A DNA stretch of 40,261 nt from Bacillota bacterium (GTDB lineage: Bacteria; Bacillota; Desulfitobacteriia; Desulfitobacteriales; JAJXUE01): positions 1-40,261 of the forward strand of contig JAJZPO010000019.1 of the NCBI GenBank assembly GCA_021811155.1, read 5' to 3'. Position numbers and translations under genes: made by a program. Shown one piece after another: positions 2,732 through 31,479 of this stretch. Under the pieces are notes generated by a model that worked only from the letters and a program-made list of their open reading frames with translations, was not told where the DNA came from and made no database searches. Position 1 is the stretch's first letter; each line of letters opens with the position of its first letter.

Positions 2732-2743
2732 TGCGCCTTCCCC

Positions 2744-3673
2744 CTAGTCCCGAAGATTACGGCCTGTAAGCTGGAGGAAGACCGTTTCCAGGTTTGGTTC
2801 CTTGACTTTTACCCCGCCCACTTTTTGGCCCAGGCGGACGAAGCAGGCCAGGACTTCCGGCAGGACCTCCGGGCCTCCGGCAGACAAAAACTGAATCTCA
2901 TCGCTGCCGGCCGTAACCCCGCTCACACCGGCAATTCCCTTCAGGCAGTCGAGAACATCCTGGCCAACGCCTTGGGCTTCGACCGTAACCACATCCAGCC
3001 CCCCGGCAAGTTGGGCCAGTTCCTTCAGGCTCCCCTGGGCCAGCACCTTGCCATGGTCCATGATCGCCACCCGGCTGCACACCGACTCTACCTCCTCCAT
3101 GTAATGGCTGGTGTAAATCACCGCCATTCCCTGACTGTTCAAGAGCCTCACCGTCTCCAGGATATGGTTGCGCGACTGTGGATCGATGCCTACGGTCGGT
3201 TCGTCCATGATCAGCAGTTTCGGCCGGTGCAGCAAGCTGGCCGCGATGTTGATCCGCCGCTTCATCCCGCCGGAATAGGTCTCAATCCGTTCACTGGCCC
3301 TGTCAGCCAGGCCGGCAATATCCAATGCCTCATTGACGCGCTGCCGCAAAACCTTGCCCCCCAGCCCGTACATCCGCCCCCAGAAATTGAGGTTCTCCCT
3401 GGCGCTGAGGGTAGGGTACAGCGCTATGTCCTGAGGCACAAGCCCAATAAATTGTCTGACGGCCTTTGTGTTTACACCCGCCTGCCCGGCGAACCTAATC
3501 TCTCCCTGATCAGGTGACAGCAGGCCGCAGATCATGGCAATAGTAGTTGACTTTCCGGCTCCATTAGGCCCGAGCAGCCCGAAAACCTCCCCCTCCCCTA
3601 CCGAAAAGCTTACTCCGTTAACCGACTTTCTGCCGCTAAAGTCCTTGACCAGGTTAGTCACAGTCAACAACAA
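2744..3673 (-). CDS. ABC exporter ATP-binding protein (DrrA/LnrL-like)
   Basis: Nucleotide-binding subunit of the exporter encoded by the two downstream permeases. It shows Walker A GLLGPNGAGKSTT, Q-loop LVPQDIALYP, signature YSGGMKRRINIA, Walker B LLIMDEPTVGID and the H-loop histidine in YTSHYMEEVE. The signature with MKRR and the C-terminal extension of about 80 residues fit the DrrA/LnrL drug-exporter ATPases. The frame is open to a GTG at 3685, but there the GAAGAGG box touches the start codon. TTG at 3673 has GGAGG at 5 nt spacing and is preferred here. First gene of the operon; no regulator lies next to it. Confidence 0.88.
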   Translation of the reverse strand: MLLTVTNLVKDFSGRKSVNGVSFSVGEGEVFGLLGPNGAGKSTTIAMICGLLSPDQGEIRFAGQAGVNTKAVRQFIGLVPQDIALYPTLSARENLNFWGRMYGLGGKVLRQRVNEALDIAGLADRASERIETYSGGMKRRINIAASLLHRPKLLIMDEPTVGIDPQSRNHILETVRLLNSQGMAVIYTSHYMEEVESVCSRVAIMDHGKVLAQGSLKELAQLAGGLDVVTVEAQGVGQDVLDCLKGIAGVSGVTAGSDEIQFLSAGGPEVLPEVLACFVRLGQKVGGVKVKEPNLETVFLQLTGRNLRD

Positions 3674-7954: not shown

Positions 7955-10900
7955 TTACCCTTTGCTCCCTACCAACTGTCTAAGCTGCTGCTCGATTCCC
8001 TTGCTGACCACGGCCTCTCCGCCGAATATGGTCGCTCCGGTCAGGTTTTTGCTCTTCAGGTAGTTCATGACCTGATCCGGCAAACTTCCGTCCGCCAGGA
8101 CAATCGGGGCATTGTGAGCGGCAGCATAGACGCTTCCTGCCAAGGCATCCGGGAAGTTGTCGCCTGTGGCCACGCAGACGTCTTGTCCGGCTAAGTTGAA
8201 GTACCGGGCGACGTCCAGAGAGGTGGCATAGCGGTCGGCTCCCCCGATCCTGACAATATTCGTCTGAGCCAGACCCGTGATTTGGGCAGCCTGGTTTGCC
8301 ACAGCTGTGCCGATGGCCGCTTCCCCTCCGATGATATAGACTTTGGCGGGCTTGATGGCGGCAATTTCCTGCGCGACGGCGCTACTGATCCCATCTTTTT
8401 GGACCAACAGGATCGGCAGCTGCATTTGCGCCGCAACACTGCTGACGGACAGGCCGTCCGGGTAGTTTTCACCGGTGACCAGCACAACCGGGGTTCCGGT
8501 CTTGACCGCCAATTGATCCGCTATTTTAACAGAAGTTTCATAGCGGTCCGCTCCACCTATTCTGGTAATATGGTTGAAACCGCTTGCTGCCACTTTGTTT
8601 TCCATCGCGCTGCTGACAGCGGCCGTGCCGCCCAGGATATAAACCGTCCCCGCCGGGTCCAGGTTGGACTTCAGGTAGTTTAAGACTTTTGCTTGATCCG
8701 CTTCTGAACTCCCCACGAGGAGTATAGGCGCATTCAGCTTATAGGCCAAAACACTTCCTGCTAAGGCGTCCGGATAGTTGTCCGCCGTGGCTAAGATCAC
8801 ATTAGATATTTTGCCGGTGTATTCCGCTTGGGCGATGGCCAAGGCAGTATCGACCCGGCTCCGGCCCGCCAGTCTTATAACCCCGGAAGTCGTCGGGCTC
8901 ATTTTGAAATCCCAATGTACGATTTCCTGTTCCACGGAAATGGTCGGGCTTGTGTATGGATCATACCCGTCCTTGGTGGCAACGATATAGTAATCCGTGG
9001 TCGGGAAGACCATGAAGCCATAGGCTCCACTGCTGTCACTGGTCTGGGGATCCTGGTTATTGCTGGGTTTGAATCCGGCGATGCTTGGCAGGGCTACCAC
9101 GGTATCCGGAGTTTTTCCTGCCGCCTTATTCCTCTCGGTACCGGCGTAGTACAGGGTAACCTTAACTCCCGCCAGGGCTTTTCCCGTGGCGGCATCGGTG
9201 ATGATGCCATAGGGGTCGATTAAGGTTATGGTTAAGCTGACATTCCCGCTGCTGTCAATTTTAATCTCCAGGGTGGCAATCGTAATTTTCTGCCCATGGC
9301 CCAAATCATAAGTGATATTAAAGTTATTGTCGGTTCCTTTGGTCAAATTCGCCACTTGGATTGTCCCGTCAGCGGAAATTGGGGCAGGCGTTCCCGCGGC
9401 GCCGGTTATAGCCACATGAGAGAGATCGCTCAATGGGCTTACCGTTCCGTCCGGTTGTTTCAGCACCGCAAGATGTGCGGCACTCATGGAAACCGTATCA
9501 CTGCCGGTACTATTGGTCGTTACAGTGGCGGTTACACTGGAAACATTCACGCCTGTCGTACCGTCGATGACGTTACCTGTTACTGTGGTTGATGTGGAGG
9601 ATGAGCTATGCGAGCCGCCTCCGCCGCCATCTCCGCTATTGCCTCCGCCTCCCGAAGATCTTGGGGCCAGGACGGTAAATCCAAGCGGATTGCTCGCGAC
9701 ACCGTAGACCGTGGCCGTAACCGTGCCGGAACCGGCGGCCAGCGGAGTCAATAGACTGCCTGTCAGGCCGGCATAAGCATTCCCTGAAGCCAGATTCCAC
9801 TGTACGGTCTGACCGCTCAGACTAAAAGGAGCACCGTATTGGTCCGTTCCGTTCAGGCTGAGATTATTGAGATCATAGACTGCTTGCCCGACTGTGAGGT
9901 CAGGAATGCTGCCGCTTAAGGTAAGAACGGTGAGCGTGGGAGCGGGCGGGATGGTTTCAAACTCGGCGCTTACCATGACGTTGGCCGCAGGCATCGTGAA
10001 GCTCGTGCCGCTGATCAGGTGATCCGTTGTCCCGTCGTTATACTTCAAAGTTCCGGCTTTCAGTTGCATCCCGGCATCCGGGGTTATCGTCAGGTTGATG
10101 GCTGCCCCTGATGTTGCCGTGCTCGGGCTGGCTGTGATGCTCCCGCCCGTCAGGCTGCCGATGCTGACCGTATATGTGGCCGGCGGGATGGCACTCAGGG
10201 TAAGGTTTACGCCCGAGGTCGTCGTATTGGCTGTTACGTTTACATTCGTTTTATTGGCGCCGGTATAGCCTGTCAGACCGGCGGTTACGGTATAGCCTGT
10301 TCCGGCGGGTACGTTGAGGATGGAGTAGCTTCCGTTGCCGGCCGTTGCGGCTGAATAGACACTGCCGCTCACCGTCAGGCTCACCGTCGCTCCGGCCAGC
10401 GGATTCGTTCCGTCCGTTACCGTCCCGCTGATCGTTCCGGTGGTAATCACCGGCGGGATGGCCGTGAAATTCGCCACCAGAGTTCTGTCAGCCGTACCCA
10501 GGGTGAAGACGAATGCTGCATTGGTGCTCACCTGGCTTCCGCCCTCCGTCCAGTTGACGAAGGTATAACCGCTGTTGGGCGTGGCCATCACCGTCACCGA
10601 AGCTCCTTCGGCATACGTGCCCCCGCCGGAAACCGTTCCGCCTGCTGGCGGATTGGATGAGACGCTGACGGTGTGGGTAAGAGGCGGATTCGCCGTCCAC
10701 TGAGCGTACAGCGTGACATTGGCGGCTCCCATCGTTAATGTCTCCCCAGCTGCGTAGCTTGTGCCGCTGCCACCGGCTGCGGTGTTCCATCCCGCGAAAG
10801 TGCTGCCTGTCTTGACAAGGCTTCCGGCCGCCTTGACGGTTGCCTGTGCTCCGACCACATATCTGAGAGGATCGGACGGGACTGTGCCGGAATCGGCCCC

Positions 10901-13189
10901 GTTACCGTCGTAAGTCACCGTATAGCTTACAAGCCCCTCTCCCGCGCCGCTCACGACCCAGTTGGAGGTAGGGCCGCTTAAGGCAAAGCCGGACAGGCTG
11001 CCGTTACGGTAGCCTGTTTCATCCGCAAGCGTGGTCACACCGGCATTGTCGCCCCCCGCCACTCCCTGGTTAAAACTGTAGGCGCTCACCAGACCGGTTT
11101 GATCGGAAGGGTCAATGGGATTCAGCATATTCTGGCGGATTTCATTCTGCGTCAGCGCACGGTTCCAAATCCGAAAATCATCCAGTGAGCCCTTGAAAGG
11201 ATAGTTACCGTTGCCGCGGCTGCCCAGTACGAAGGACGACGAGGAAGATGCAAGTGGGCTGGTGACAGGCTGCGCGCCGTTATTGGTCAGGGCAACCTCG
11301 TTTCCGTTGATATACATTTTCGCCAGAGCGGCCGAGGGCTGGTAGACCACGGCCACATGGGTCCAGACGCCTGTGGGCAAAACACCTGCGGCATCAAGGT
11401 AGACGCCGGGGGTGGGAATAAACCTCAGGCTGTTGGCACTTCCGCCCGTCTGGATTTCCATTTGCTCGGTATTTTTGCCGCAGATGAACTGGATGTCGGA
11501 GGAGGAATTCGGCTCCCACTTCACCCAGGTTTCGATGGTAAAGGCGTTGGTAATACCGTCGTCGTTGTCGGGGATGGACACATAATCGTCCACACCGTCA
11601 AAGCTTAAGGCGTTGCCCCGGCCCTGGCCGGTCTGGGTGACCGTGACTGTTTTGGTGGTCGTGCCGTCGGAAACGGTCACGTTGGCGCTCCTGAATGAGG
11701 ACGAGGTGTTGGCGGACGCCGTCATAGTCAGCCAGCTGAAACCGCTGCCTGCAGCGGGACTGACGGTCAGCCAGGGCTGGTCGGAAACCGCCGTCCAGGC
11801 GCCGCCGCCCGTGACATACACCGGCGTGACGCTTCCCCCGTAAGCGCCCATAAAGTCCGTTGCGCCGGAGACATTCAGCGGGGGAAGCACCGCGGCGCCC
11901 GGGCTGGCGCTGTTTATTTTGACATAGCCGTCCTCCACCCAACCCGCGATGTTGGGCTGGGGCAGGTTGGAGAGCTGCAAGTACACGTCCCAGTCACTCT
12001 TCTCTATGGTGACGGTCTGGTGTTCATAAGGGGCCAGGGTGTAAGCATGGGTAACGCCGCCGGCGTTTTTCAGCTTCACGGCATGCGCCGCGTCGTCGTT
12101 GTTCTGCAGCTCAAAGGTGGCGGTCGTATCGCTGGTGCCTTTCGGTTCGGCCGTTACCAGCGCCGCGCCGTACCATTTCATGACTGCGGGGCTTACAACC
12201 ATAAACGGGTTATACGGGTCATCGTGCATGCTGGCCTGCACCTCATAGCCGGTCGGAGAGAGGAAATACACATTGCTGCTGGCGGGAACGCTGACGGTAT
12301 AGATATTGCTGCCTGTCTGCAGCTCCAGCGTGACCTCCTGGGCGTTCCGGTTATTGATGGAATACATTCCGGCCTGTCTGTTTGCCAGCGAACCCAAAAA
12401 ATACATTTCAATCTTGTTCCGTGGCAGAGGCGTTTCATTGTATGCAAAATCCTGATCGTTGGTCAGCACCTGCTTAAAAAGAGTGTTATTGTAGTAAAAG
12501 GAGCATATGGAACCTTTCGGAACATTAATTTCCTGGGTTTGCAACGATCCGATAACAAGAGTGCCGCGTGTTTCGCCGTCCGAATAACCCAAAGTCACAT
12601 CAAAGGGATTGTGATTCTCGATATCAAAAAAAGACACGATCTGGATGCCGGCGGGAGGAGCCACGATCTCAATGTTGCCCGCAGGGTCGGATGAGGGTAT
12701 AAACTGGGCATTCCAGCGCTTTAAAACATCATGATACGAAGGTAAGTAGTTGATTTCATACGAATCGCAGCTCGGGATAAATGCCAGATCATGTCCATAA
12801 ACGATGCCGCTGTCAGACGCCGCCACCAGCCGGCAGTGGTAGAGGGTAGCGGCGCGCAGGCCGGTCAGCGCGGCGCTGACGCTTACCGCCGACGCGCCGG
12901 AGACTGTCCCGGCGCTTGCCGTGGAGCCGTAGGCTGTAGTGGTTCCATACTCGAAATAGACCGTGCAGCTCCCGCCGCCGGGATTGACGCTGCCGTTGAG
13001 CCTGGCCCGCACGTCCTCCGTCTCCCACCGGTTGGTGATGCCGTTATATCTGCCCCCATAATTAAGGTACATCCTCGTAGGCTTCAAGGTCTGTACCGTA
13101 GGTGTCGAATCCGCAAAAGCAACAGGTATACCGATTATGAGCAGCGCCGCGATCAGTAAAAACACCCCGCCTGTTTTTATCATCCTCAT
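7955..13189 (-). CDS. Giant secreted mosaic surface protein with three CWB2 cell-wall-binding repeats
   Basis: 1744 residues. A signal peptide (positive start, hydrophobic core, cleavage after PVAFA, about residue 26) leads into a fibronectin-III-like region (to about 130) and an unassigned region (to about 430). Then come a BACON-like domain (PWLTVSPAAGSG...VTVTQTG, about 435-520) and a LamG/concanavalin-like domain beginning LSFDGVDDYVSIPD (about 525-690). Next are Listeria/InlB-type repeats (YDGNGADSG...FAGWNTAAGG and FVNWTEGG), a carboxypeptidase-regulatory-like beta sandwich (GTISGTVTDGTNPLAGATV), an Ig-like domain and a Gly/Ser linker. A second regulatory-like fold precedes the three C-terminal CWB2 repeats (about 1440-1744; NYPDALAGS, NYPDGLSVS, NFPDALAGS). 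CWB2 repeats anchor S-layer-type proteins to Firmicute cell walls. ATG 13189 follows AAAGGAGG by 11 nt. Probably an adhesin or glycan-binding wall protein. Confidence 0.9.
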   Translation of the reverse strand: MRMIKTGGVFLLIAALLIIGIPVAFADSTPTVQTLKPTRMYLNYGGRYNGITNRWETEDVRARLNGSVNPGGGSCTVYFEYGTTTAYGSTASAGTVSGASAVSVSAALTGLRAATLYHCRLVAASDSGIVYGHDLAFIPSCDSYEINYLPSYHDVLKRWNAQFIPSSDPAGNIEIVAPPAGIQIVSFFDIENHNPFDVTLGYSDGETRGTLVIGSLQTQEINVPKGSICSFYYNNTLFKQVLTNDQDFAYNETPLPRNKIEMYFLGSLANRQAGMYSINNRNAQEVTLELQTGSNIYTVSVPASSNVYFLSPTGYEVQASMHDDPYNPFMVVSPAVMKWYGAALVTAEPKGTSDTTATFELQNNDDAAHAVKLKNAGGVTHAYTLAPYEHQTVTIEKSDWDVYLQLSNLPQPNIAGWVEDGYVKINSASPGAAVLPPLNVSGATDFMGAYGGSVTPVYVTGGGAWTAVSDQPWLTVSPAAGSGFSWLTMTASANTSSSFRSANVTVSDGTTTKTVTVTQTGQGRGNALSFDGVDDYVSIPDNDDGITNAFTIETWVKWEPNSSSDIQFICGKNTEQMEIQTGGSANSLRFIPTPGVYLDAAGVLPTGVWTHVAVVYQPSAALAKMYINGNEVALTNNGAQPVTSPLASSSSSFVLGSRGNGNYPFKGSLDDFRIWNRALTQNEIRQNMLNPIDPSDQTGLVSAYSFNQGVAGGDNAGVTTLADETGYRNGSLSGFALSGPTSNWVVSGAGEGLVSYTVTYDGNGADSGTVPSDPLRYVVGAQATVKAAGSLVKTGSTFAGWNTAAGGSGTSYAAGETLTMGAANVTLYAQWTANPPLTHTVSVSSNPPAGGTVSGGGTYAEGASVTVMATPNSGYTFVNWTEGGSQVSTNAAFVFTLGTADRTLVANFTAIPPVITTGTISGTVTDGTNPLAGATVSLTVSGSVYSAATAGNGSYSILNVPAGTGYTVTAGLTGYTGANKTNVNVTANTTTSGVNLTLSAIPPATYTVSIGSLTGGSITASPSTATSGAAINLTITPDAGMQLKAGTLKYNDGTTDHLISGTSFTMPAANVMVSAEFETIPPAPTLTVLTLSGSIPDLTVGQAVYDLNNLSLNGTDQYGAPFSLSGQTVQWNLASGNAYAGLTGSLLTPLAAGSGTVTATVYGVASNPLGFTVLAPRSSGGGGNSGDGGGGGSHSSSSTSTTVTGNVIDGTTGVNVSSVTATVTTNSTGSDTVSMSAAHLAVLKQPDGTVSPLSDLSHVAITGAAGTPAPISADGTIQVANLTKGTDNNFNITYDLGHGQKITIATLEIKIDSSGNVSLTITLIDPYGIITDAATGKALAGVKVTLYYAGTERNKAAGKTPDTVVALPSIAGFKPSNNQDPQTSDSSGAYGFMVFPTTDYYIVATKDGYDPYTSPTISVEQEIVHWDFKMSPTTSGVIRLAGRSRVDTALAIAQAEYTGKISNVILATADNYPDALAGSVLAYKLNAPILLVGSSEADQAKVLNYLKSNLDPAGTVYILGGTAAVSSAMENKVAASGFNHITRIGGADRYETSVKIADQLAVKTGTPVVLVTGENYPDGLSVSSVAAQMQLPILLVQKDGISSAVAQEIAAIKPAKVYIIGGEAAIGTAVANQAAQITGLAQTNIVRIGGADRYATSLDVARYFNLAGQDVCVATGDNFPDALAGSVYAAAHNAPIVLADGSLPDQVMNYLKSKNLTGATIFGGEAVVSKGIEQQLRQLVGSKG

Positions 13190-20246: not shown

Positions 20247-22901
20247 CTACAAAACAGATTGTCCGGATAACAAATAAACCTTGCCCGCATCACCATCTAC
20301 AATCAGATTGTCCCCGTCCGCAATAAGTTTCATGACCCCAGGAATATTTACTACAGCCGGTATGCCGTACTCCCTGGCCACAGTTGCCCCATGGGACAGG
20401 AAACCGCCGGTCTCCATGACAATTCCGGCTGCTTTCAAGAACAGCGGTGTCCAACCCGGGTCCGTGGAAGGGGCGACCAGAATTTCACCTTGTTCAATGC
20501 CTTCTTCCGGTCTGCGCAGCAGCCTGGCTTTGCCCTGTGCCCTTCCGGCGGCAACCCCAAGACCGCTTAGCACATTCCCGTTTCCGATCGGAACGGCCGG
20601 GACTGTGCTGGCCTTTCCATTGATGATCAAATCCGGCGGATCTGTCTGCTCCAATTCCCTCTTGCGTTGCTTCCGGTCGCTCACTAAAAGCGGCAAGCCC
20701 GTCCCATCCCAGTAGCCCAGGAGCACAGCAAAAATATCTGGAAAAGAACAATGAAATACATCGTTAATCTCAGGTATCAGCCCCCGTTCTTTCAGCCTTT
20801 GCCCGATGCCAAGGGTGAGACGCCGGGATGGCTCCACCAGCCTGGCTATTTCCGATTTTCCTTCTTCCCTTAGTTCCAGCGCTTTTATCGCCCGGCGCAA
20901 CAACAGGTTTATCCGCCAACGCCGGTAAAAGGGCGCTGTCCCTTTGAATAGGAGTTCGGCCTGCTCAGCTTTAGCGTGCTGCTCCGTCTTTAATTTGTTA
21001 AGATCCGCTGTTTCCATCATGCTTTTAATGTAGTCCAGCAAATAGGTTGGGTCCTCCCGCCAGCGGGGATTTTCCCAGTACGCTTCATAAACTGCCCGGT
21101 GGCCGAAATCGGCGAGATAAGCTTTGAACCTGCGTTTAAAGACAGATTCTTCCGGCAACAAAGCAGCCCATGCCAGGGGTTGGAAAGGGTCAGCCTCAAA
21201 GTAGCGCTGGGCAAAGTGATCCTCACGGGCGGTCTCAGCCAATTCCACCAGTCTATACCCCTGTTCCGCACTAGGAAGCTTAGCCTTACCAACCAGCAGA
21301 CTGTTGGCCATGGCCCAGGCCCTTGCCCCGAAATCCTTTTGCAAAGCCTTTACAACCATATCCATGAGTAGAGCGGCATTGTTGTTAAGGAGACCTATTT
21401 TAGCAAACGGTTTCACCTCTGTGTTAACAGTGATGAGGGCCTTGACCATCTCCGCGTCGCTCAAACCGGCCAGATCTGTCTCCCGCCACTCTTGGCCCAG
21501 CATCCGGACAGTCTGGAACAATTCTGGCGCATTTTTCTGAACCCGCAGCATGAGCCGAAACAGTCTTAACTTATTAACGGCGGTAGTAAGGCGCTGCTTA
21601 ACAGTCTGTTTGGGCACCTGGATTTCCTGCTGGTGTCCGCCAACCTGGACATTGATTTCCGCCGGCAAAAGGCCCAGCATGTCAAAATACTCCCACTGCA
21701 GCAAAGCGATATTCAGGTAAATCCTGCCGGCAAAAAAACGGCAGTATTGCCGGCCTGCAAGGACCCTGTAGCCGATTTCTTTGGGCGCTACAGCCAGTAA
21801 ATTGTTTACAGCCGCAAGCATCGGCCGGTATAAAAAGGCCGAAAACACCATTGGACAGGCGTCTTTGAAGTTGCCATTGGACCAGATCTCCGGCTGGTCT
21901 TTCAGGGCAGGATATGTGTACCTGGCTTGCCCGGTGACAGGACGCGCCTGCAGCACAAAGAAATTTCTTCCATCGAAGGCCCACTCAACATCCTGCTGGA
22001 CTTCTCCCTCCCCCAGGGTCTTAAACACCCTGGCTGTCAGCACGCTTAGTTCAACAATCGACCGGTCGCTGAGAACCTGTGCTTTGACATCCAAGGATTC
22101 AGGCGTACGAACCAACTCCGTTCCCCCATCATCTTTGGCTATGGTGATCCATTGTTTCCGGCCGAGCTTCTTCTCAATGATCTCGAGATTGTAATTAAGG
22201 ATATACTTGTCGGGCTCGGCATCACCGCCGACAACAGATTCACCCAGGCCAAAGTTGGCTTCGATCGCAATTTGGTCCAGCCGACCGGTCTGGGGGTTGC
22301 TGCTGAAAGCAACTCCCGAGGCCTTGGCCTCAACCATCTGCATGATTACCACCGACGGCACCACAGCCTGATCTGCAAAACCCATTTTCTGGCGGTAGAC
22401 CAGGGCACGCATACTCCAGAGCGAGGCATAGCAGTGCTTAACAGCTGTCAATACTTTGTCTAAACCCTGCACATTGAGCAAGGAGTCGTGGATGCCGGCA
22501 AAGGAGGCCTTGACCGAGTCTTCAGCTGAGGCGGAAGACCGTACGGCCAGGGGTTTATTTAGCAGGTTTAGTTCCTTAAGAAAGCCCGAAACCTGTTCAA
22601 CTACCGGGTCCGGCAGGCGAGCCATAAGAATGCTCTCCCTCAGGGCCTCCAACTGCTTCTCAAGAACCGATTCATCCCTGTCGCTGCGCCGGGAATATTC
22701 CGAAACCTCCCTAAGGTGTGGGGCCAGACCGTTTTCCTGCACGAAGGATGCATAGACTGAAGAGGTGATTACGCCACCCTCTGGCACCTTAAATCCGTAC
22801 CGGGCCAGCCTGCTCAGGTTCCAGCCCTTACCGCCGCACCCTTCCACCCCGCTTGTAAAGGCTTCGGTCCAATTCACAATATACTGTTCATCCCTTTTCA
22901 A
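20247..22901 (-). CDS. Rifampin phosphotransferase-like / PEP-synthase-family enzyme
   Basis: 884 residues with the three-part dikinase layout. An N-terminal ATP-grasp domain (about 1-320; GGKGWNLSRLARYG, LAVRSSASAEDS, QDVEWAFDG, VLQARPVTGQ) comes first. A long central domain follows (about 340-770). The swivelling phosphohistidine domain at the C-terminus has METGGFLSHGATVAREYGIP with His837. The LSHGA...AREYGIP form and the lack of a PEP/pyruvate-binding TIM barrel fit rifampin phosphotransferases, which phosphorylate the antibiotic with the beta-phosphate of ATP, better than PEP synthase. The substrate is not certain. TTG start 21 nt after the TetR gene on the same strand, so the two form an operon. 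Confidence 0.8.
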   Translation of the reverse strand: MKRDEQYIVNWTEAFTSGVEGCGGKGWNLSRLARYGFKVPEGGVITSSVYASFVQENGLAPHLREVSEYSRRSDRDESVLEKQLEALRESILMARLPDPVVEQVSGFLKELNLLNKPLAVRSSASAEDSVKASFAGIHDSLLNVQGLDKVLTAVKHCYASLWSMRALVYRQKMGFADQAVVPSVVIMQMVEAKASGVAFSSNPQTGRLDQIAIEANFGLGESVVGGDAEPDKYILNYNLEIIEKKLGRKQWITIAKDDGGTELVRTPESLDVKAQVLSDRSIVELSVLTARVFKTLGEGEVQQDVEWAFDGRNFFVLQARPVTGQARYTYPALKDQPEIWSNGNFKDACPMVFSAFLYRPMLAAVNNLLAVAPKEIGYRVLAGRQYCRFFAGRIYLNIALLQWEYFDMLGLLPAEINVQVGGHQQEIQVPKQTVKQRLTTAVNKLRLFRLMLRVQKNAPELFQTVRMLGQEWRETDLAGLSDAEMVKALITVNTEVKPFAKIGLLNNNAALLMDMVVKALQKDFGARAWAMANSLLVGKAKLPSAEQGYRLVELAETAREDHFAQRYFEADPFQPLAWAALLPEESVFKRRFKAYLADFGHRAVYEAYWENPRWREDPTYLLDYIKSMMETADLNKLKTEQHAKAEQAELLFKGTAPFYRRWRINLLLRRAIKALELREEGKSEIARLVEPSRRLTLGIGQRLKERGLIPEINDVFHCSFPDIFAVLLGYWDGTGLPLLVSDRKQRKRELEQTDPPDLIINGKASTVPAVPIGNGNVLSGLGVAAGRAQGKARLLRRPEEGIEQGEILVAPSTDPGWTPLFLKAAGIVMETGGFLSHGATVAREYGIPAVVNIPGVMKLIADGDNLIVDGDAGKVYLLSGQSVL

Positions 22902-23629: not shown

Positions 23630-23876
23630 TTCCATTATTCCAATAATCCGGCACAAAATCCATGAGCGCCGGAGGATATATCAAACGGACCCCAGCGACC
23701 GAACGACTCGAGAGAGCAGATTTTCACGCTAATAAAAGGAGCAAACCCTTTCCCATCACAGGGTTTGCTCCTTATGCCAACATATGTTGCCCAGCCTTCC
23801 CCACATACTTGCAGCCCACAAAAGCAGACAGACGGTTTAACTCTCCTACCCGTAACGAACGTTCACAAAAAATCTG
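23630..23876. other. Intergenic region between cooS and the TetR operon
   Basis: Without a gene. Holds the cooS terminator (23736-23773). Nothing else supported. Confidence 0.4.
23736..23773 (-). terminator. Terminator of cooS
   Basis: Perfect 14-bp stem AAGGAGCAAACCCT / AGGGTTTGCTCCTT with a 10-nt loop, followed on the minus strand by TTATT. Lies 104 nt after the cooS stop and separates the array from the TetR operon. Confidence 0.8.
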
Positions 23877-25790
23877 TTACTGAAGTCCAAGCGCTATCCT
23901 TTTGCCTATAATATGGGCCTCAATGGCATTAGCCACTTCGATGGGGTCATCACCTAAGGCAACCTTGCCTCCGGTCAGATTTACCACATCCTCAGTCAGC
24001 AGTTTCACCAGCTTCGGAGCGCCTGTCACGAACGGAACCGGGGACAAGTGCGTATATGTCCCGAAAGCAACTGCAAACACACCGTCGATTGTGGCCTTCT
24101 GTTCCATCCATTCAGGCGCAGTAACAGCAATTGGCAGCTGCGGCACATCTACGTTCAAGTGGTCTGCCAGGGCGGCGACAAGCATGGAAATCCTGCCGGT
24201 ATCGGTACACGTCCCGAAACTTAAAACCGGCGGGATTTTTAACAGGTTGCACACTTCTTTCAAGCCACTTCCGGCCATGTTCACCGCATCTGTGTTGCAC
24301 AGTCCGGCTACCTCCAGGCCGTGGTTGCCGCACCCGGCGCTGACAACGAGAATATCCTTCTTAATCAGCTCCTTGGCAATGTTGACAGTATTCCAGTCTT
24401 GGGGTCCATTGCGTAGGGTTGTGCAGTTAACCAGCGCCACTACGCCCTTGATTTTACCGGCAGAAATCACTTCAACCAGAGGGTCCAGCTTGTTGCCAAG
24501 GGCCTGCAGGACTGCTTCGGTCGAGAAACCGGCAACAGCCTTCTGAATATATTGAGGTACCACAGCGGCTATGCGGCCGTTTCTTTTTTTGAAGTTTTCA
24601 ATCCCTAGGTCAATCAATCGGTCAGCCATGCCACTGGCCTGGGCCGGATCGTAGGGCATGCTATGCTGCAAGCCTGGTACGCCGATAATTGTGCTGACGC
24701 TGACCAAAGTAACCTGGTACTTTTCGGCGTACTGGTCGATGGCAGGCGGCGAACAGTTTTCCTCCATGGCCAGCACATCCACGGTGCCTGTCGCCAAGAG
24801 GGGTTCAATCGCCAGCCAGTTGCCGGTAAGCCCGGTAAACACTTCGTCAACAGGGAACCTCTGCAGCAGTTCCTGCCCGGTTTCGATGGACCCGATTACC
24901 CGCAGGCCTTTGGCCCCGGCGGTTTGGGCCTTGGCCTGTACTTCCGGCATTTTGGCCTTAAGCAGAGTAGCCACCCCCACCCACGGTTGGTGGCCGTTAA
25001 AGACGATGTTGACATAGTTGGGTTCCATAATCCCAAGGTCAACGTTGACTTCGTGCGGCGCCGGCGTACCGAACAAAATATCCTGAACCATTTCCAAACC
25101 GATTTGAGCTGAATAAATCGTTGCTAACCCCAGACGCATCGCCTTTTTGGCGAGGGAAACATAGTCGCCGTCAACATTGGTCAGGCAGCTGGCGACTGCA
25201 TTTTGCTCCTCATGAATAACACCGGCCGGATACAGATTTAGGTCTCGCCAAACTTGCTTCCGCTTTTTCGGCGCGAAAGCCTCAACCATAACATTCGGTT
25301 TTTGGTGGTCTATGCTCATTTGAGCTTCCAACAAATCGGCTAAATGCACGGCCATAGTCTTAACATCTTGACTGGTGTTGATACCTAGGCTGCCGCACAT
25401 CCAGCGCAGCTTATTTTCATCGGCGATGCCAAAGGGCGTTTTCCCATTGCCTGTTTCCCTGAGAGTGCGGAATGCTTCATAAGCATGGTGGCTGTAGGTT
25501 GCGGCTCCCATGATATTGTGGAGCAGAAAAGTCCTCATGGCCATAGCGTCAGGGCCGATACCGCAGACCCCTTTGTCCTGGCCTGATTTTTCGCTGATCC
25601 TGCATGGTCCCTGCGAACACAGTTGGCAGCTTAAGCCTTCAAGGCAGAATTTACAGCGGATCTTTTCCTGGGAGCTCCAGCGGTCCCAAACGTTGGACAT
25701 CTGGTCTTCCCTGATCTTCTTTAACATCTCCCTGACAGATGCATGATAACTGGCCAGTCCTTCCGTCCGCTCCATGATTGTTTCACTCAT
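23877..25790 (-). CDS. cooS: Divergent anaerobic carbon-monoxide-dehydrogenase catalytic subunit (CooS family)
   Basis: 637 residues, the normal CooS length. B-cluster cysteines are present: Cys55, Cys58, Cys63 (CQLCSQGPCRI) and Cys76. At the D-cluster the usual CX7C is replaced by CX2C (RCKFC, Cys46/Cys49). Of the six C-cluster ligands, His267 (NGHQP), Cys346 (ENCSPP), Cys456 (VNCTT), Cys487 (AGCGN) and Cys528 (GTCTD) are kept. The position of the usual CCTG cysteine is Glu303 (SIETGQE). The acid/base lysine is kept (Lys565), but the run of proton-relay histidines is mostly lost. No cooF, cooC or acetyl-CoA synthase genes lie nearby. ATG with GGAGG at 7 nt, 94 nt after the kinase gene. Family certain; CO oxidation doubtful. 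Confidence 0.93.
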   Translation of the reverse strand: MSETIMERTEGLASYHASVREMLKKIREDQMSNVWDRWSSQEKIRCKFCLEGLSCQLCSQGPCRISEKSGQDKGVCGIGPDAMAMRTFLLHNIMGAATYSHHAYEAFRTLRETGNGKTPFGIADENKLRWMCGSLGINTSQDVKTMAVHLADLLEAQMSIDHQKPNVMVEAFAPKKRKQVWRDLNLYPAGVIHEEQNAVASCLTNVDGDYVSLAKKAMRLGLATIYSAQIGLEMVQDILFGTPAPHEVNVDLGIMEPNYVNIVFNGHQPWVGVATLLKAKMPEVQAKAQTAGAKGLRVIGSIETGQELLQRFPVDEVFTGLTGNWLAIEPLLATGTVDVLAMEENCSPPAIDQYAEKYQVTLVSVSTIIGVPGLQHSMPYDPAQASGMADRLIDLGIENFKKRNGRIAAVVPQYIQKAVAGFSTEAVLQALGNKLDPLVEVISAGKIKGVVALVNCTTLRNGPQDWNTVNIAKELIKKDILVVSAGCGNHGLEVAGLCNTDAVNMAGSGLKEVCNLLKIPPVLSFGTCTDTGRISMLVAALADHLNVDVPQLPIAVTAPEWMEQKATIDGVFAVAFGTYTHLSPVPFVTGAPKLVKLLTEDVVNLTGGKVALGDDPIEVANAIEAHIIGKRIALGLQ

Positions 25791-25884
25791 AGAAAAACCT
25801 CCATTTAGAACATATCGAGGCTAGAATGCTCTATATTGGAGGCAACTATTCTCAGAAAAAGCCGGTAAAATTATGGCTAATAGA

Positions 25885-27453
25885 CTAGGAATCAGCCGGA
25901 TAACCACTAATCTTCTGTACAGCCCGGTAGAGCGGGCGAAGTTTGGGGTACATGTTCAGGTAAACTTGCCGGTAAAGCCGGTCATAAACGTTCATGGACC
26001 TGGGGTCAGGTTCAAACACGGCGCCGCTGTGGGTCATACGCCGGACTGCGGTCTGCACATCCGGGTACCAGCCAATCCCGGTCGCCGCCAAAATTGCCGC
26101 CCCCAGACCCGATGTCTGATCCGTGCCCGTTTTCACTGCCGGCAGTCCCAGGACATCCGCCGTAATCTGCATAACCAGAGCGCTGCGGGAACCGCCGCCG
26201 GAGACATAGATCTCCCTTACCGGCACACCGCTGCGCTTCTCGATCCGTTCCTTCCCGTCCCGGATAGCATAAGCTAAACCTTCCAGAATCGCCCGGTAGA
26301 CGTGATATTTCGTATGAATGCCGCCGAAACCGATAATCGCTCCTTTGGCCTCGGGCCCTGGATAGCGGACTCCGGGGGACCAAAAGGGCTGGAGCACCAA
26401 CCCGTGAGAACCTGCCGGGACCTTGGCCGCCTCCAGTTCCAGGAGTTCTTCCGCTGTCACTCCTCGTTCACCGGCCAGCCGCATTTCCTCCTGAGCAAAC
26501 TGCTCTTTGAACCAGGAGACCAGCCAGAAACCCCTGTAAGTCTGCATCTCCAGGTTGTAGGCGCCGGGCTCGGCGCTGGGGTAAGGCGGCACCAAGGGGA
26601 CAGACTCGATATAACGGTGCGAGTTGGTGATCAAAGTAGCAGTCGTACCATAACCGACGCAGCCCTGATGCAGTTCCAGACAGCCGGAGCCCAAAACCTC
26701 GCAGGCCTTATCCGAGGCCGCCCCAATCACCGGGAGTCCCGGTCTCAGCCCCATCTCGGCCGCCGCCTCCGCGCTCAAGGCCCCCAGTGGCGCACCGGAG
26801 GGAACCAGTTGCGGCAACAGCTTATGCTCAACGGGCAGAGCCCTGGACTTCCAGTGCCGCGAGGGGGCCCAAGTCTGCCTGCGCACATCGAACGGGATGT
26901 AGCCCACTTGGTTGCCGATGGAATCCACATACAACCCCGTCAGTTTGAAGTGGAGATAACCCGACAGCAAGAGAAAGTGCTTTGTCCTGGCCCAAAGGTC
27001 CGGTTCCTGCTCCCGCAGCCAGTTGATCTCGGCTTCGGCCTGAAGCTGGCGCAAGGTCCGCTCCAGGCCTGCCAGTTTGAACAAGGTTGCCCAGAAAGGC
27101 CCTAATGGCGGCAGTCTGCCCGCCCGGCGCTGATCCAGCCAGACGATAGCCGGACGCAATGGCTTGCCGGCTTCATCCAGGCAGACCACCGTGCCGCGTT
27201 GGGTCGTCAGGGCCATAGCCGCGACTGCTGCAGCGCTCACTTTCCCCTGACGCCATAATTGGCTGGCAGCTCCGGCCACCCACTCCCAGTAAGCCTCAGG
27301 CGCCTGCTCAGCCCAGCCCGGCTGAGGCGAAAGATACGCCTTAGGATATGCGATTTGAGCGTAATCCAGCAAATTCCCCGCTGCATCAAAGGCTAGGGCC
27401 CGTGTGCTTTGGGTTCCCACATCGATGGCCAGGAGTAGTTCACTGCAGCTCAT
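25885..27453 (-). CDS. FGGY-family carbohydrate kinase (YgcE/GlpK/EryA-like)
   Basis: 522 residues. The N-terminal FGGY domain begins LLLAIDVGTQSTRALAFDA (phosphate-binding loop) and has VWLDQRR and the GWAEQ motif with the predicted catalytic acid region. The C-terminal domain has GYGTTATL and YVSGGGSRSALVMQITADVL (adenosine site). ATP-dependent phosphorylation of a sugar or polyol is expected. The DVGTQS start is less like true glycerol kinases (QGTTSSR). ATG 27453 has GAGGAGAGG upstream; the open frame extends 132 codons further into the preceding gene but has no family similarity there. 28 nt after the GlpD-like gene, same operon. Substrate could be glycerol, an alkylglycerol, or another polyol. 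Confidence 0.88.
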   Translation of the reverse strand: MSCSELLLAIDVGTQSTRALAFDAAGNLLDYAQIAYPKAYLSPQPGWAEQAPEAYWEWVAGAASQLWRQGKVSAAAVAAMALTTQRGTVVCLDEAGKPLRPAIVWLDQRRAGRLPPLGPFWATLFKLAGLERTLRQLQAEAEINWLREQEPDLWARTKHFLLLSGYLHFKLTGLYVDSIGNQVGYIPFDVRRQTWAPSRHWKSRALPVEHKLLPQLVPSGAPLGALSAEAAAEMGLRPGLPVIGAASDKACEVLGSGCLELHQGCVGYGTTATLITNSHRYIESVPLVPPYPSAEPGAYNLEMQTYRGFWLVSWFKEQFAQEEMRLAGERGVTAEELLELEAAKVPAGSHGLVLQPFWSPGVRYPGPEAKGAIIGFGGIHTKYHVYRAILEGLAYAIRDGKERIEKRSGVPVREIYVSGGGSRSALVMQITADVLGLPAVKTGTDQTSGLGAAILAATGIGWYPDVQTAVRRMTHSGAVFEPDPRSMNVYDRLYRQVYLNMYPKLRPLYRAVQKISGYPADS

Positions 27454-27481
27454 CCAACCTCTCCTCTCACTGACGGTCCTC

Positions 27482-29062
27482 CTAGGACAGCGGCTGCGGA
27501 CTGTAAGCTTCCTGCCACAGAGCGAGATAAGCCGCTTTCTCCCGCTGCCATCTTTCTTCATCCCAGCCCAGGAACGGTAAAACCCAGGCCCTGATTTCTT
27601 CCAGGACAGACGCCCCGCCCTGCGGCAGGAGAAGCCCCAAACGCGTCCGCCTGAGCAGCAAATCGTCCAGATGCATAACCTGCTCGCACTGTGCCGACCA
27701 TGCCAGTTCCGCCCAGTATAGACCTGTCCCTGGCACCTTCTCCCAGCCTTTGCCGGCAGCATGGGGCAGGATCTCCCCGGCATCATCCCCGAAACGCCCG
27801 GCCAAAACAGCCAACGCCTCCTCCCCGCCTGCTCCCCCGGTCGCGGCATCCGCCGCCCCCTGGGAGTATCCCCCTTCTCCCCGGACGTGTTTGGAACCAG
27901 GCGGGCTTCCCAGCCATTTGGCGGCTTCCCGCAGCGCTTGCCGGGCCAGCAGGGGGAAGGTGGTCAGTTTACCGCCGGTTACCGTAATCATGCCCCGCTC
28001 CGGCCAAACCACGTGATCGCGGGCTTCACGCGAAGGGTCGGCCTTCCCGGTATTGAGCACCGGTCGCACCCCGGCAAAACTCGCCATTACATCCCCGGCC
28101 TGCAGCGCCAGGTCCGGGAAACACGCGTTGAGCCCTGCCAGCAGATACACTCCTTCATTCCTGCTCATCTTTGGTTCCTCAGTCAGCGGAAGTTCATGGT
28201 CAAGGTCCGTGGTCCCCACCAGGGTCACACCCTGCCACGGCATGGCGTACAAGGGACGCTGATCCTCCGGGTGGCTGAAGCTGACCGCATGTTCGATGGG
28301 CAGCCGGCTTCTCGCAATGATCAGGTGGCTCCCCCTCAGTTTGCGCAGGCGCGGCGCGGCTCCCAATTGCTGTCTCAAGTGGTCTGCCCACACGCCGGTG
28401 GCGTTGATAACGGCCTGAGCCCGCAGTTCCCGGAACTCACCGTGTTCCCGCTCCCGCACCGTAACGCCCAGCACCCGGCCTTGCCCGTCCCGTACCAGTT
28501 CCTCGACGCGAATGTAATTGAGCGCTGTCCCGCCCTGTCTCAGCCCTTCCCGGATCACCCGCAATACCAGACGCGCGTCATCGGTTTGGGCATCCCGGAA
28601 GGCAAACCCGCCTCTCAGTCCCTTACCATTCAGACCGGGGACCATCGCCCGTAGCTGCGCAGCATCAAGGCGCCGGTGCGTCCAATTCCAGGCCATGCCG
28701 TCATAAACGGTCAACCCAGTCCGCAGCATCAGCCCGCTCAGCGCAGAATAGACCGGAATGGCAAATATCAACTCCTCCACCAAGCCAGGGTAGCGCCGCA
28801 ACAGCCTCTCCCGCTCCCGCACCGAGTGCCAGGTCGTCTTCACTTGCCCCTGGCTCAAGTAACGCAGCCCGCCGTGCACCAGTTTGCCTGAACGGCTGGA
28901 AGTGCCCCAGGCAAAATCGCGCTGCTCCAGAAGAAGGGTCCGGTACCCCGCCTGGGTAGCTTCCCGGAAGACCCCGGCGCCGGTCATCCCGCCGCCAATG
29001 ACGATCACATCCCAGACATCAGGCAGTTCTGCCAAAATCTCTGCCCGCTTCACGCGCCTCAC
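27482..29062 (-). CDS. FAD-dependent glycerol-3-phosphate dehydrogenase family protein (GlpD/EryB-like)
   Basis: 526 residues. Dinucleotide-binding motif VIVIGGGMTGAGVFREATQAG (here GGGMTGAGVFREA) near residue 20, then LLEQRDFAWGTSSRSGKLVHGGLRYL, the GlpD signature, shown in part as GTSSRSGKLVHGGLRYL. Substrate-domain motifs follow: INATGVWAD, GTTDLDHE, GVRPVL and TVTGGKLTTF. The DAO fold is complete and a GlpD-type C-terminal helical domain (about 390-526) is present. It oxidises glycerol-3-phosphate, or a related polyol phosphate, and passes electrons to quinone or another carrier. GTG overlaps the stop of the upstream flavoenzyme by 4 nt, indicating translational coupling and joint function. 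Confidence 0.9.
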   Translation of the reverse strand: MRRVKRAEILAELPDVWDVIVIGGGMTGAGVFREATQAGYRTLLLEQRDFAWGTSSRSGKLVHGGLRYLSQGQVKTTWHSVRERERLLRRYPGLVEELIFAIPVYSALSGLMLRTGLTVYDGMAWNWTHRRLDAAQLRAMVPGLNGKGLRGGFAFRDAQTDDARLVLRVIREGLRQGGTALNYIRVEELVRDGQGRVLGVTVREREHGEFRELRAQAVINATGVWADHLRQQLGAAPRLRKLRGSHLIIARSRLPIEHAVSFSHPEDQRPLYAMPWQGVTLVGTTDLDHELPLTEEPKMSRNEGVYLLAGLNACFPDLALQAGDVMASFAGVRPVLNTGKADPSREARDHVVWPERGMITVTGGKLTTFPLLARQALREAAKWLGSPPGSKHVRGEGGYSQGAADAATGGAGGEEALAVLAGRFGDDAGEILPHAAGKGWEKVPGTGLYWAELAWSAQCEQVMHLDDLLLRRTRLGLLLPQGGASVLEEIRAWVLPFLGWDEERWQREKAAYLALWQEAYSPQPLS

Positions 29063-30651
29063 CCCTCAGCAATCAGTTTGCCCGGATTCATCATCTCTTC
29101 CGGGTCGACCGCGCGGCACACGGAACGGAGCATGGCCAGGCCCTGAACCCCTTTTTCCGCCGCCAGATAAGGCCGGTGGTCAAGCCCCACTCCATGCTGA
29201 TGGCTGATCGTGCCCCCGCAGCGCACGATTGCCGCACTTGCCGCCCGCTTCAGGCGCTGCCAGCGCTCCCTGGTTTCAGCCGCGGAAGGGGCCACCCGAA
29301 ACACATATGAAGTATAGATACTTGCGCCCTGGGGATAAAAATGCGACAGATGGGTAAAGACGTGAACCTTTTCAGACTCCAGTCCTTCGCTCAGCGCCTG
29401 CTGCACCGCCCGGACCGTCTCCGGCACCCGGCGCCAGCTCACCGCCGTCTCTAGGGTGTCAACCGCATAACCCATCTCCCACAGCTCATTGCGGATATAC
29501 GGCAGCCGGAACCTGTTCTTGTGCCAGGCCCGGCCAATCGGCGTTCCCACTGGGATACCCCGGTGCTTTTTGAGAATCGCCCAGGCCTCGCCCAAAACCC
29601 AGCGCACTGTCCCCGCCAGACCGATGCCACCGTAGAGAAGAAGGCATCTCCCTTCCCCTGCCCCGCGCAGGGCCAGCCATTTCTCCAGGATGTCGAGAGC
29701 CTTGTTGGGGCCGCTCAAGCGCAGCGTGGTCTCGGTCTCTTCCGACAGACTTAGGCGCAGCATACCCAAGGGAAGTCCGGACTGCGCCAGTTCCCGCACC
29801 GCGGCAAGGGCCGAGGCGGCGTCCGGAAAAAAGGCCGCCTTGATGACTTCCTTCTCCGGCAGGGGCTGGACCCTGACCACGGCCTGCGTGATCACCCCCA
29901 GACGCCCTTCCGACCCGAGAACCATTTCGCGCAAGTCAGGGCCTGCGGCTGTGGCCGGCAGGGCAGGCAGTTCCAGCCTTCCCACCGGAGTCTCTACCCT
30001 TCCCCCCGCAAACAGTCGCTCGATCTTGCCGTAGCGGAGGGAATATTGTCCGGCCGAACGGGCAGCCACCCACCCGCCCAGCGTCGAATACTCAAAGGAT
30101 TGAGGGTAGTGGCCCAGCGTATAGTTGCGGGCATTCAAAGCTGCCTCCAGATCCGGTCCCCGCACGCCTGCCTGGAATGTCGCTAACCGGCTTGTGTCAT
30201 CCAACTCAAGCAGCGCCTTCATTCTGGACATATCTACGGAAAGCACAGGCCGGTCCTGCAGCGGAACTGAAAGATGGCCGACTACGCTTGTCCCGCCGCC
30301 GTAAGGGATGACAATGACTCCGGCCTGGCGGGCATAGGTTAGGAGGGTACGGACATCCTCCTCGCTCTCTGGATAGGCTACCCCATCCGGGAAAGCGGGT
30401 ACAGTTCCGCCGCGGATGTCGATCCAATCACCCTGGCTCTGGCCGGCACTGTGCAGAACGCGCTGCCAGACATCCTCATGAACGAGCGGATGCCCGGGCA
30501 AACGAGAACGCGGCACCTTGGCCATGATTTCCTGCCGGGAAACATCCCGGGGCGCCGTCCCCGGACCTATTCTTTCCTCCAAAAAAGCCTTGGCCTCGCC
30601 TGTCACGCCATAACTCACCGCATCGTCTCCCCAGCCGTTCCAGCGTCGCAC
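29059..30651 (-). CDS. Alkyldihydroxyacetonephosphate-synthase-like FAD oxidase (YgcU/GlcD family)
   Basis: 530 residues. The N-terminus RRWNGWGDD is characteristic of alkyl-DHAP synthases. The FAD-binding type-4 domain (about 90-270) has the loop VIPYGGGTSVVGHL and STLGGWVAARSAGQ. The FAD-oxidase C-terminal domain ends with TISHQHGVGLDHRPYL, equivalent to the conserved His-rich active-site loop of the family. E. coli YgcU, encoded near the FGGY kinase gene ygcE, is a relative. Possible roles are ether-lipid formation from acyl-DHAP or oxidation of a hydroxy-acid or polyol phosphate. GTG 30651 has AAGGAGG 8 nt upstream, so the upstream in-frame ATG (30669), whose codons contain that box, is not the start. 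Confidence 0.85.
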   Translation of the reverse strand: MRRWNGWGDDAVSYGVTGEAKAFLEERIGPGTAPRDVSRQEIMAKVPRSRLPGHPLVHEDVWQRVLHSAGQSQGDWIDIRGGTVPAFPDGVAYPESEEDVRTLLTYARQAGVIVIPYGGGTSVVGHLSVPLQDRPVLSVDMSRMKALLELDDTSRLATFQAGVRGPDLEAALNARNYTLGHYPQSFEYSTLGGWVAARSAGQYSLRYGKIERLFAGGRVETPVGRLELPALPATAAGPDLREMVLGSEGRLGVITQAVVRVQPLPEKEVIKAAFFPDAASALAAVRELAQSGLPLGMLRLSLSEETETTLRLSGPNKALDILEKWLALRGAGEGRCLLLYGGIGLAGTVRWVLGEAWAILKKHRGIPVGTPIGRAWHKNRFRLPYIRNELWEMGYAVDTLETAVSWRRVPETVRAVQQALSEGLESEKVHVFTHLSHFYPQGASIYTSYVFRVAPSAAETRERWQRLKRAASAAIVRCGGTISHQHGVGLDHRPYLAAEKGVQGLAMLRSVCRAVDPEEMMNPGKLIAEG

Positions 30652-30706
30652 GGGATCGACCTCCTTCATCTTATTCCAGGGTTTTTCTTTAGCATCGCTA
30701 TTTCCC

Positions 30707-31420
30707 TCAGGGCCCCTGATCTTCTGCGGCGCCTTTTTCCTGCCATAGCGCGATACTTTCCGTCATCGCTTCCCGGACAATGAGCTCGGTCCGCTCTCCG
30801 TCACCGGCCATCGCCGCAGCCAGGAACGCTGCATAGAAACGCCGGGAAGCCTGACGCTGTTTTTGCCGCTGAAAATACCTGGTGGCCAGTGGGATATAGA
30901 CCGGGTCAAAGCTGTTTAAAAGCAGCACATACAAGGGATTTCCGGACAAAACAGCTGTTTTCTTGTGCATCTCCCAGTCAAAAACGGCATAAGCTTCGCC
31001 TTGATCAGGCAGAGCCTCCCAATCGGCCAAAAGCGCCACCACTTTGGCCGGATTCCTTGCAACGGCTTGGCTGATATACACTGGCGCCAACACGGCCCGC
31101 AATTCGAGCAGATGGACGATAAAATCTTCCGGCAGCCTCTCGAATGTCTGCGCCAGGTTTACCAACGTGTTCAGGTTCCCCTTCTGCCAGTAATCGTTGA
31201 CCAGGGCAGGACGGCCCTGCCGCAGGGTGAGCCAGCCGTCGCGTTCCAATCTTTGCAGGGCTTCGCGCAGAGCCGGTCGGCCGACGCCGAACTGCAGTGA
31301 TAAGCTGCGTTCCGGCGGAAGTTCCCCTCCCGCCGGAAACCCCCCACTGATAATAGAGCGGATCAGCTGCTGTTCCGCCATATCCGATGAGCGCTGTCCG
31401 CCATTTAAGCTTACAGACAA
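30707..31420 (-). CDS. FadR-like GntR-family regulator (acyl-CoA-responsive type)
   Basis: 237 residues. A winged helix (about 15-80) reads FPAGGELPPERSLSLQFGVG then RPALREALQRLERDGWLTL. The stretch to VNDYWQKGNLNTL parallels E. coli FadR (FPPGTILPAERELSELIGV, LREVLQRLARDGWLT, VNNFWETSGLNIL, from memory). The C-terminal domain also follows FadR (SGNPLYVLLLNS against SGNPIYGLILNG), so this is a FadR_C protein rather than a general FCD regulator. The expected effector is long-chain acyl-CoA. TTG 31420 has GGGAGGA at 8 nt. Lies between the DUF362 gene and the flavoenzyme gene. A perfect FadR-type half-site pair lies at the operon promoter (32866-32876). Confidence 0.85.
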   Translation of the reverse strand: MSVSLNGGQRSSDMAEQQLIRSIISGGFPAGGELPPERSLSLQFGVGRPALREALQRLERDGWLTLRQGRPALVNDYWQKGNLNTLVNLAQTFERLPEDFIVHLLELRAVLAPVYISQAVARNPAKVVALLADWEALPDQGEAYAVFDWEMHKKTAVLSGNPLYVLLLNSFDPVYIPLATRYFQRQKQRQASRRFYAAFLAAAMAGDGERTELIVREAMTESIALWQEKGAAEDQGP

Positions 31421-31479
31421 AATAAAATCCTCCCTCAACTAATTAGCTTTAGCTTGCTCTTCATTTAATCGCGAAGAAT

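Follow-up and report, generated by a model that had tools for sequence, protein, structure and literature searches.

The cooS-V-type gene and its surroundings

The window analyzed here is a 40,261-nucleotide stretch of a Bacillota bacterium genome (contig JAJZPO010000019.1), which encodes on its minus strand a 637-residue relative of carbon monoxide dehydrogenases (CODHs) (Table 1). The open reading frame begins with an ATG at 25790 and ends with a stop codon at 23877. Its product contains a Prismane/CODH Pfam domain and scores 871.6 bits against TIGR01702, the profile model of the CODH catalytic subunit (cut-off 478), versus 49.4 bits against the hybrid cluster protein (HCP) model, far under the cut-off of 360.8.

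The gene is separated by 94 nt from the end of the upstream FGGY-kinase gene, and a search of this gap's minus strand yielded no sigma-70-like promoter. On the 3′ side lies a terminator-like hairpin that a simple terminator scanner passed over, as its loop limit is 8. Because this hairpin is strong, the cooS-V gene and the TetR gene beyond it are probably not co-transcribed.

Neither cooC nor cooF occurs among the scanned window neighbors (kinase, FAD enzymes, TetR and PEP-synthase-like), as the original prediction had stated. We considered an operon role with the upstream same-strand genes (FGGY kinase, GlpD-like, alkyl-DHAP-synthase-like FAD enzyme, FadR, DUF362) and rejected it, as none of them recurs. 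A gene-neighborhood comparison across 80 named loci of CooS-V genes found no shared partner gene; the largest neighbor cluster, a YggT-like divergent gene at 13 loci, is restricted to Desulfosporosinus. The solitary position of cooS-V in these 80 loci is in keeping with a published survey that found 64% of clade D genes to lack operon partners (PMC13056359).

Three other regions of the minus strand were recorded. Positions 25885–31438 encode the FGGY kinase, a GlpD-like FAD enzyme, a FadR-type regulator, and an FAD-linked oxidase with possible resemblance to alkyl-DHAP synthase; together they may serve a glycerol or ether-lipid pathway. Positions 20247–22901 encode an 884-residue PEP-synthase-like protein with PPDK_N and PEP-utilizer mobile domains that falls under the cut-offs of the PEP synthase, rifampicin phosphotransferase, and prodigiosin ligase models. 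At 7955–13189 lies the gene of a 1744-residue surface protein with cell-wall-binding repeats and lectin-like and InlB-type repeat domains.

Table 1 Features of the cooS-V-type locus in the window.
Feature	Position	Strand	Basis or detail
cooS-V-type gene (clade D, structural group D-1), 637 aa	23877..25790	minus	ORF, translation, Pfam, TIGR01702, 7b7q identity, tree
Predicted forespore promoter GAATA-N18-CATTCTA, exact sigG consensus	25822..25851	minus	61 to 32 nt before ATG, inside 94-nt gap
Cys46-X2-Cys49, interface D-cluster motif, type III; [2Fe-2S] in CooS-V Ch	25644..25655	minus	
Cys55-X2-Cys58-X4-Cys63-X12-Cys76, B-cluster [4Fe-4S] motif	25563..25628	minus	
His267 (= His259 of CooS-V Ch), cluster ligand	24990..24992	minus	alignment
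Glu303, codon GAA, at Cys295 position of Ni-CODHs	24882..24884	minus	alignment
Asn345-Cys346 (= Asn337, Cys338 of CooS-V Ch)	24753..24758	minus	alignment
Cys456 (= Cys449), cluster ligand	24423..24425	minus	alignment
Cys487 (= Cys480), cluster ligand	24330..24332	minus	alignment
Cys528 (= Cys521, persulfide cysteine)	24207..24209	minus	alignment
Glu563 (= Glu556 of CooS-V = Glu494 of HCP), cluster ligand	24102..24104	minus	alignment
Terminator-like hairpin 3′ of gene	23730..23773	minus	14-bp stem, 10-nt loop, T-rich tail, -23.6 kcal/mol

Active site and kinship of the protein

A search of all PDB sequences returned 7b7q as the best match, covering the full length with 866 bits (the next structure scores 402 bits) and 60% identity. 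This entry is CooS-V of Carboxydothermus hydrogenoformans (CooS-V Ch; PMC9311411). CooS-V structures are also the top Foldseek matches of the predicted AlphaFold model, which was built from a shallow alignment, has a mean pLDDT of 70, falls below 50 over residues 1–79, the D- and B-cluster region among them, and served for the fold match only. A maximum-likelihood tree places the window protein together with 7b7q in a clade of Glu303-bearing proteins (branch support 100/98), beside Cys303-bearing relatives.

Alignment with 7b7q superimposes Glu303 on Glu295 of CooS-V, with no gap around the site. The C-cluster set of Ni,Fe-CODHs, consisting of five cysteines and one histidine, is incomplete here, as Glu303 takes the place of Cys295. 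The original prediction had named this exchange together with the five retained C-cluster ligands and the CX2C D-cluster motif, and the alignment bears out all three; its residue numbers are exact (His267, Glu303 in GSIETGQE, Cys346, Cys456, Cys487, Cys528, Cys46/Cys49). It had also allowed that a cysteine elsewhere might fill the Cys295 role, and none nearby does in the ungapped alignment. Its statement that the proton-relay histidines are largely gone went too far: Tyr99 occupies the acid-base His position (His93 equivalent), His102, the equivalent of His96, remains, and the catalytic Lys563 equivalent is retained as Lys565. The likening of Glu303 to the His-Glu pair of HCPs does not hold, as Glu295 of CooS-V and the conserved Glu ligand of HCPs fall at different alignment positions (PMC10502027). 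The HCP-equivalent glutamate is instead the conserved Glu563, which had been overlooked.

All readable Fe/S/O-site ligands are retained by 150 of the 151 relatives aligned (identity down to 50%; one member is truncated at the N-terminus), so that Glu303 reflects neither chance nor a sequencing error. The lone exception, a 54%-identical CooS-V relative (L239; G226:C21:59435-61324, minus), has an open frame and retains Glu303 along with the cysteines of the B- and D-clusters, but has lost Cys346, Cys456, Cys487, Cys528, Asn345, and Glu563. It is apparently a pseudo-enzyme devoid of an active-site cluster, as judged from these residues.

The characterized orthologue defines the likely chemistry. 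CooS-V Ch contains an Fe/S/O hybrid cluster seen at 1.2–1.35 Å (Jeoung 2022, PMC9311411), in line with the oxygen-containing cluster that the original prediction had named for CODH-V. The enzyme gives no Ni signal, catalyzes neither CO oxidation nor CO2 reduction, and reduces NH2OH slowly (kcat 0.13 per s), with NO reduction undetected (PMC9311411). By orthology transfer from this 60%-identical protein, with all ligands conserved, the proposal of a nickel-free Fe-S-O enzyme on a CODH scaffold that does not oxidize CO finds support. We conclude that the 637-residue protein is almost certainly a CooS-V-type Fe/S/O protein; that it is nickel-free and without CO oxidation is well supported by this analogy. 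Given the slow NH2OH turnover and undetected NO reduction, an HCP-like function on hydroxylamine or NO should not be assumed for the CooS-V type. A CODH relative with a Cys-to-Glu exchange, its Fe/S/O cluster and its clade are already known, and the window protein is no new enzyme type.

The same genome encodes further members of the superfamily. A Cys303-bearing clade D sister (L002, contig G000:C20) shares 42% identity, carries three extra N-terminal cysteines, and keeps Glu563; a cooF-like ferredoxin gene follows directly behind, and the sequence fits group D-3 of Inoue 2019. An AcsA-like protein (L003) and a true HCP (L005) are also encoded. An odd CooS-like protein of 607 residues (L004; G000:C5, ORF 1489-3312, minus) has Phe at the His267 position, Ala at the Cys295 position (EFAWGQ) followed by a shortened loop, and four remaining C-cluster cysteines. 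Its gene is flanked by an FAD oxidoreductase gene on one side and a cooF-like gene on the other, its product still passes TIGR01702 (487 vs 478 bits), and the sister genome G001 has a related match.

A predicted forespore-type promoter before cooS-V genes

The 94-nt gap upstream of the window gene contains an exact match to the sigG consensus (Table 1), which arises in 0.05% of shuffles of this gap. Exact sigG matches number 12 in the whole genome, the reversed control yielding hardly fewer (9); five of the 12 lie in promoter position, before genes for SASP, GerW/YtfJ, alanine dehydrogenase, a response regulator, and cooS-V. The sigF and sigG consensus strings used are those from B. subtilis work. 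Their transfer is justified by the promoters of C. difficile, where sigF and sigG sites are reportedly very similar to the B. subtilis ones and to each other (PMC3789822).

Reading of 79 cooS-V upstream regions revealed a recurring element ~60 to 30 nt before the start, for example ACATA-N15-GAGCAAACTT or ACATA-N15-GGGAAAACTT. Upstream of spoIIR, a known sigF gene, the same or related genomes have GTTTA or GTATA, with comparable spacing and a comparable -10. We compared 108 cooS-V upstreams with 599 other genes on the same contigs using textbook consensuses with mismatches. SigF sites with at most one mismatch precede 16/108 cooS-V genes (15%) and 3/599 controls (0.5%; p = 2e-11); with at most two, the values are 45% and 10% (p = 1e-16). 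SigG sites with at most one mismatch are enriched as well (9% vs 2%, p = 9e-4), sigA sites with at most two are depleted (2% vs 14%), and the sigK, sigB, and sigH consensuses show no enrichment in the same comparison. SigE is weakly enriched at two mismatches (19% vs 9%, p = 0.005), with 1% in both sets at one. Because the comparison ran over several consensuses and mismatch levels, the single p-values are somewhat optimistic.

The enrichment persists when related upstreams are collapsed to 86, 38, or 27 clusters. At 38 clusters, a sigF site with at most two mismatches or a sigG site with at most one occurs in 22/38, compared with 71/599 controls; the clustered upstreams are still kin by descent, and relatedness is partly removed. 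A matrix trained on spoIIR promoters alone likewise ranks cooS-V upstreams above controls (AUC 0.78, p = 1e-16). The pattern RNATA-N17-19-MANAMTW matches 47/107 cooS-V upstreams and 24/599 controls; it was formed after inspection of the data, and we therefore rely on the textbook consensuses and the spoIIR-trained matrix. In many lineages, the site has sigF/sigG spacing and lies at a constant distance from the start.

A minority of cooS-V loci have no recognizable site, chiefly the group at 50–54% identity and CooS-V Ch, and no such promoter was found before the three Cys-bearing sister genes checked. A genome-wide regulon scan of one Desulfosporosinus genome with an exact sigF-like pattern returned 9 matches, versus 11 for the reversed control, and was abandoned with no regulon found. 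The region upstream of the [Clostridium] viride cooS-V gene (L089) contains the perfect inverted repeat GGTTAACA-N10-TGTTAACC, which could be a repressor site.

CooS-V also co-occurs with spoIIR. Among 299 genomes of the phylum, spoIIR was detected in 51/52 that have a match at CooS-V level (above 590 bits) and in 200/247 that do not (p = 6e-4), an association confounded by phylogeny. A spoIIR match is missing in two CooS-V genomes, G173 and [Clostridium] viride. A literature search found no expression data for any CooS-V gene in sporulation and no paper tying the gene to sporulation. Transcription of all three CODH isogenes has been reported in C. autoethanogenum, where knockout of the clade D gene (cooS2, judging by gene context) hardly affected autotrophic growth. 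The word sporulation is missing from the text of the knockout paper. Given this mild phenotype and the paper's silence on sporulation, existing data do not contradict forespore control.

Proposed role, alternatives, and comparison with known systems

Upon reduction of CooS-V Ch, oxo bridges are removed and the Cys521 persulfide contributes its sulfur to the cluster, opening a gas channel; substrate may reach the reduced enzyme only, and a reductase role has been proposed (PMC9311411). From the 60% identity and the conserved ligands, we infer the same chemistry for the window protein. A homodimer of CooS-V type would carry, on a CODH scaffold, a redox-morphing Fe/S/O hybrid cluster in place of the Ni-Fe-S C-cluster, with Glu303 and His267 occupying the place of Cys295 and the exo Fe/Ni site. 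Electrons would enter through the interfacial [2Fe-2S] cluster and the [4Fe-4S] cluster. In the reduced state, the persulfide sulfur of Cys528 would shift into the cluster, opening the gas channel for reduction of a small oxidized substrate. During sporulation, sigF/sigG-type promoters would drive transcription chiefly in the forespore, where the enzyme would handle an oxidized small molecule or excess electrons of the spore compartment. The enzyme would act outside carbon metabolism, as a reductase or as protection against redox stress while the spore develops or germinates. This combination of Fe/S/O enzyme, forespore expression from sigF/sigG-type promoters, and spore redox role is, on balance, the account we find probable. 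Forespore control of cooS-V, as read from upstream DNA, is by itself somewhat probable, and our confidence in any particular substrate is low. More broadly, we lean towards viewing CooS-V-type Fe/S/O enzymes as forespore-specific proteins of Clostridia, a nickel-free CODH relative recruited to the endospore program.

The main competing reading keeps the enzyme and changes its setting: CooS-V would be a general vegetative redox-stress or redox-sensing protein, and the upstream motif would belong to another regulator or a stress sigma factor. Stress or redox sensing has already been proposed for clade D, cooS2 is transcribed in C. autoethanogenum, and the CD0174 CooS of C. difficile, of a different operon type, is induced by sigB with nitrosative and oxidative stress genes. 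We regard this reading as rather unlikely, as before cooS-V the sigB consensus is unenriched and sigA is depleted, sites of sigF/sigG spacing lie at equal distance from the start in many lineages, and the same consensus marks the SASP and GerW genes of the host genome.

The alternatives that change the enzyme itself fare worse. An enzyme dedicated to reducing hydroxylamine or NO, as a counterpart of HCP, would draw on the same cluster chemistry and on the match of Glu563 to Glu494 of HCP, yet CooS-V Ch turns over NH2OH at only 0.13 per s with NO reduction undetected, its potentials lie about 300 mV below those of HCP, and the genome also has a true HCP, which makes this equivalence improbable. 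That the protein is an ordinary nickel CODH, with Glu303 tolerated or a cysteine from elsewhere standing in, is very hard to credit, although annotation models place it far above the CODH catalytic subunit cut-off. The alignment offers no substitute cysteine, cooC is not nearby, the orthologue CooS-V Ch has neither Ni nor CO activity, and CODH-II with the exchange C295E or C295A is Ni-deficient and does not oxidize CO.

The CooS-V-type Fe/S/O enzyme under predicted forespore control has two consequences. One concerns annotation: models confidently call such proteins CO dehydrogenases, and as the characterized orthologue is unable to oxidize CO, carboxydotrophy should not be inferred from a CooS-V-type gene. 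The other concerns physiology. We give the forespore promoter signature more weight than the enzyme type. CooS-V already has a crystal structure and spectroscopy, but no operon partners. Were the enzyme made only in the forespore, this would explain together the gap in its role, the missing operon partners, and the mild clade D knockout. It would also direct the substrate search to sporulation, spore redox protection or germination, and provide a physiological context for an enzyme family with no role assigned since its structure was solved. The new part that our analysis suggests is this predicted forespore control of the CooS-V family, which we did not find in the literature searched.

The promoter architecture of cooS-V resembles that of sigF/sigG forespore genes (spoIIR, gpr, SASP, gerW/ytfJ), with a -35 of RNATA, a spacer of 17–19 nt, and a -10 like CATACTA or GGNAAACTT, and cooS-V co-occurs with sporulation genes, with phylogeny as a confounder. 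Unlike them, cooS-V appears in no sporulation regulon found in the literature searched, and its likeness to them is known here from promoter sequence. HCPs of classes I–III share the Fe/S/O cluster type with the CooS-V orthologue, their Glu494 corresponding to Glu563; they differ from the window protein in its CODH fold and interfacial cluster, and in that Glu295 does not align with the HCP glutamate (PMC10502027). The closest known system is CooS-V Ch (PDB 7B7Q/7B7T/7B95/7B97/7B9A), which has in common the Fe/S/O cluster ligands, the B-cluster, the cysteines of the [2Fe-2S] D-cluster, and the lack of adjoining CooC/CooF genes. The two differ in the active-site motif, SIETGQE in the window protein and SIESGQE in CooS-V Ch, and in the forespore-type promoter, which is predicted before the window gene and unrecognized before that of CooS-V Ch. 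Within the CODH classification, the defining marks of clade D group D-1 are Glu replacing the first C-cluster Cys, a D-cluster of type III, and a Tyr where the acid-base His would be (Inoue 2019, PMC6344411). The window protein has all three, with Glu303, the Cys-X2-Cys-X5-Cys arrangement of Cys46, Cys49, and Cys55, and Tyr99, and it agrees with this group in every feature tested.
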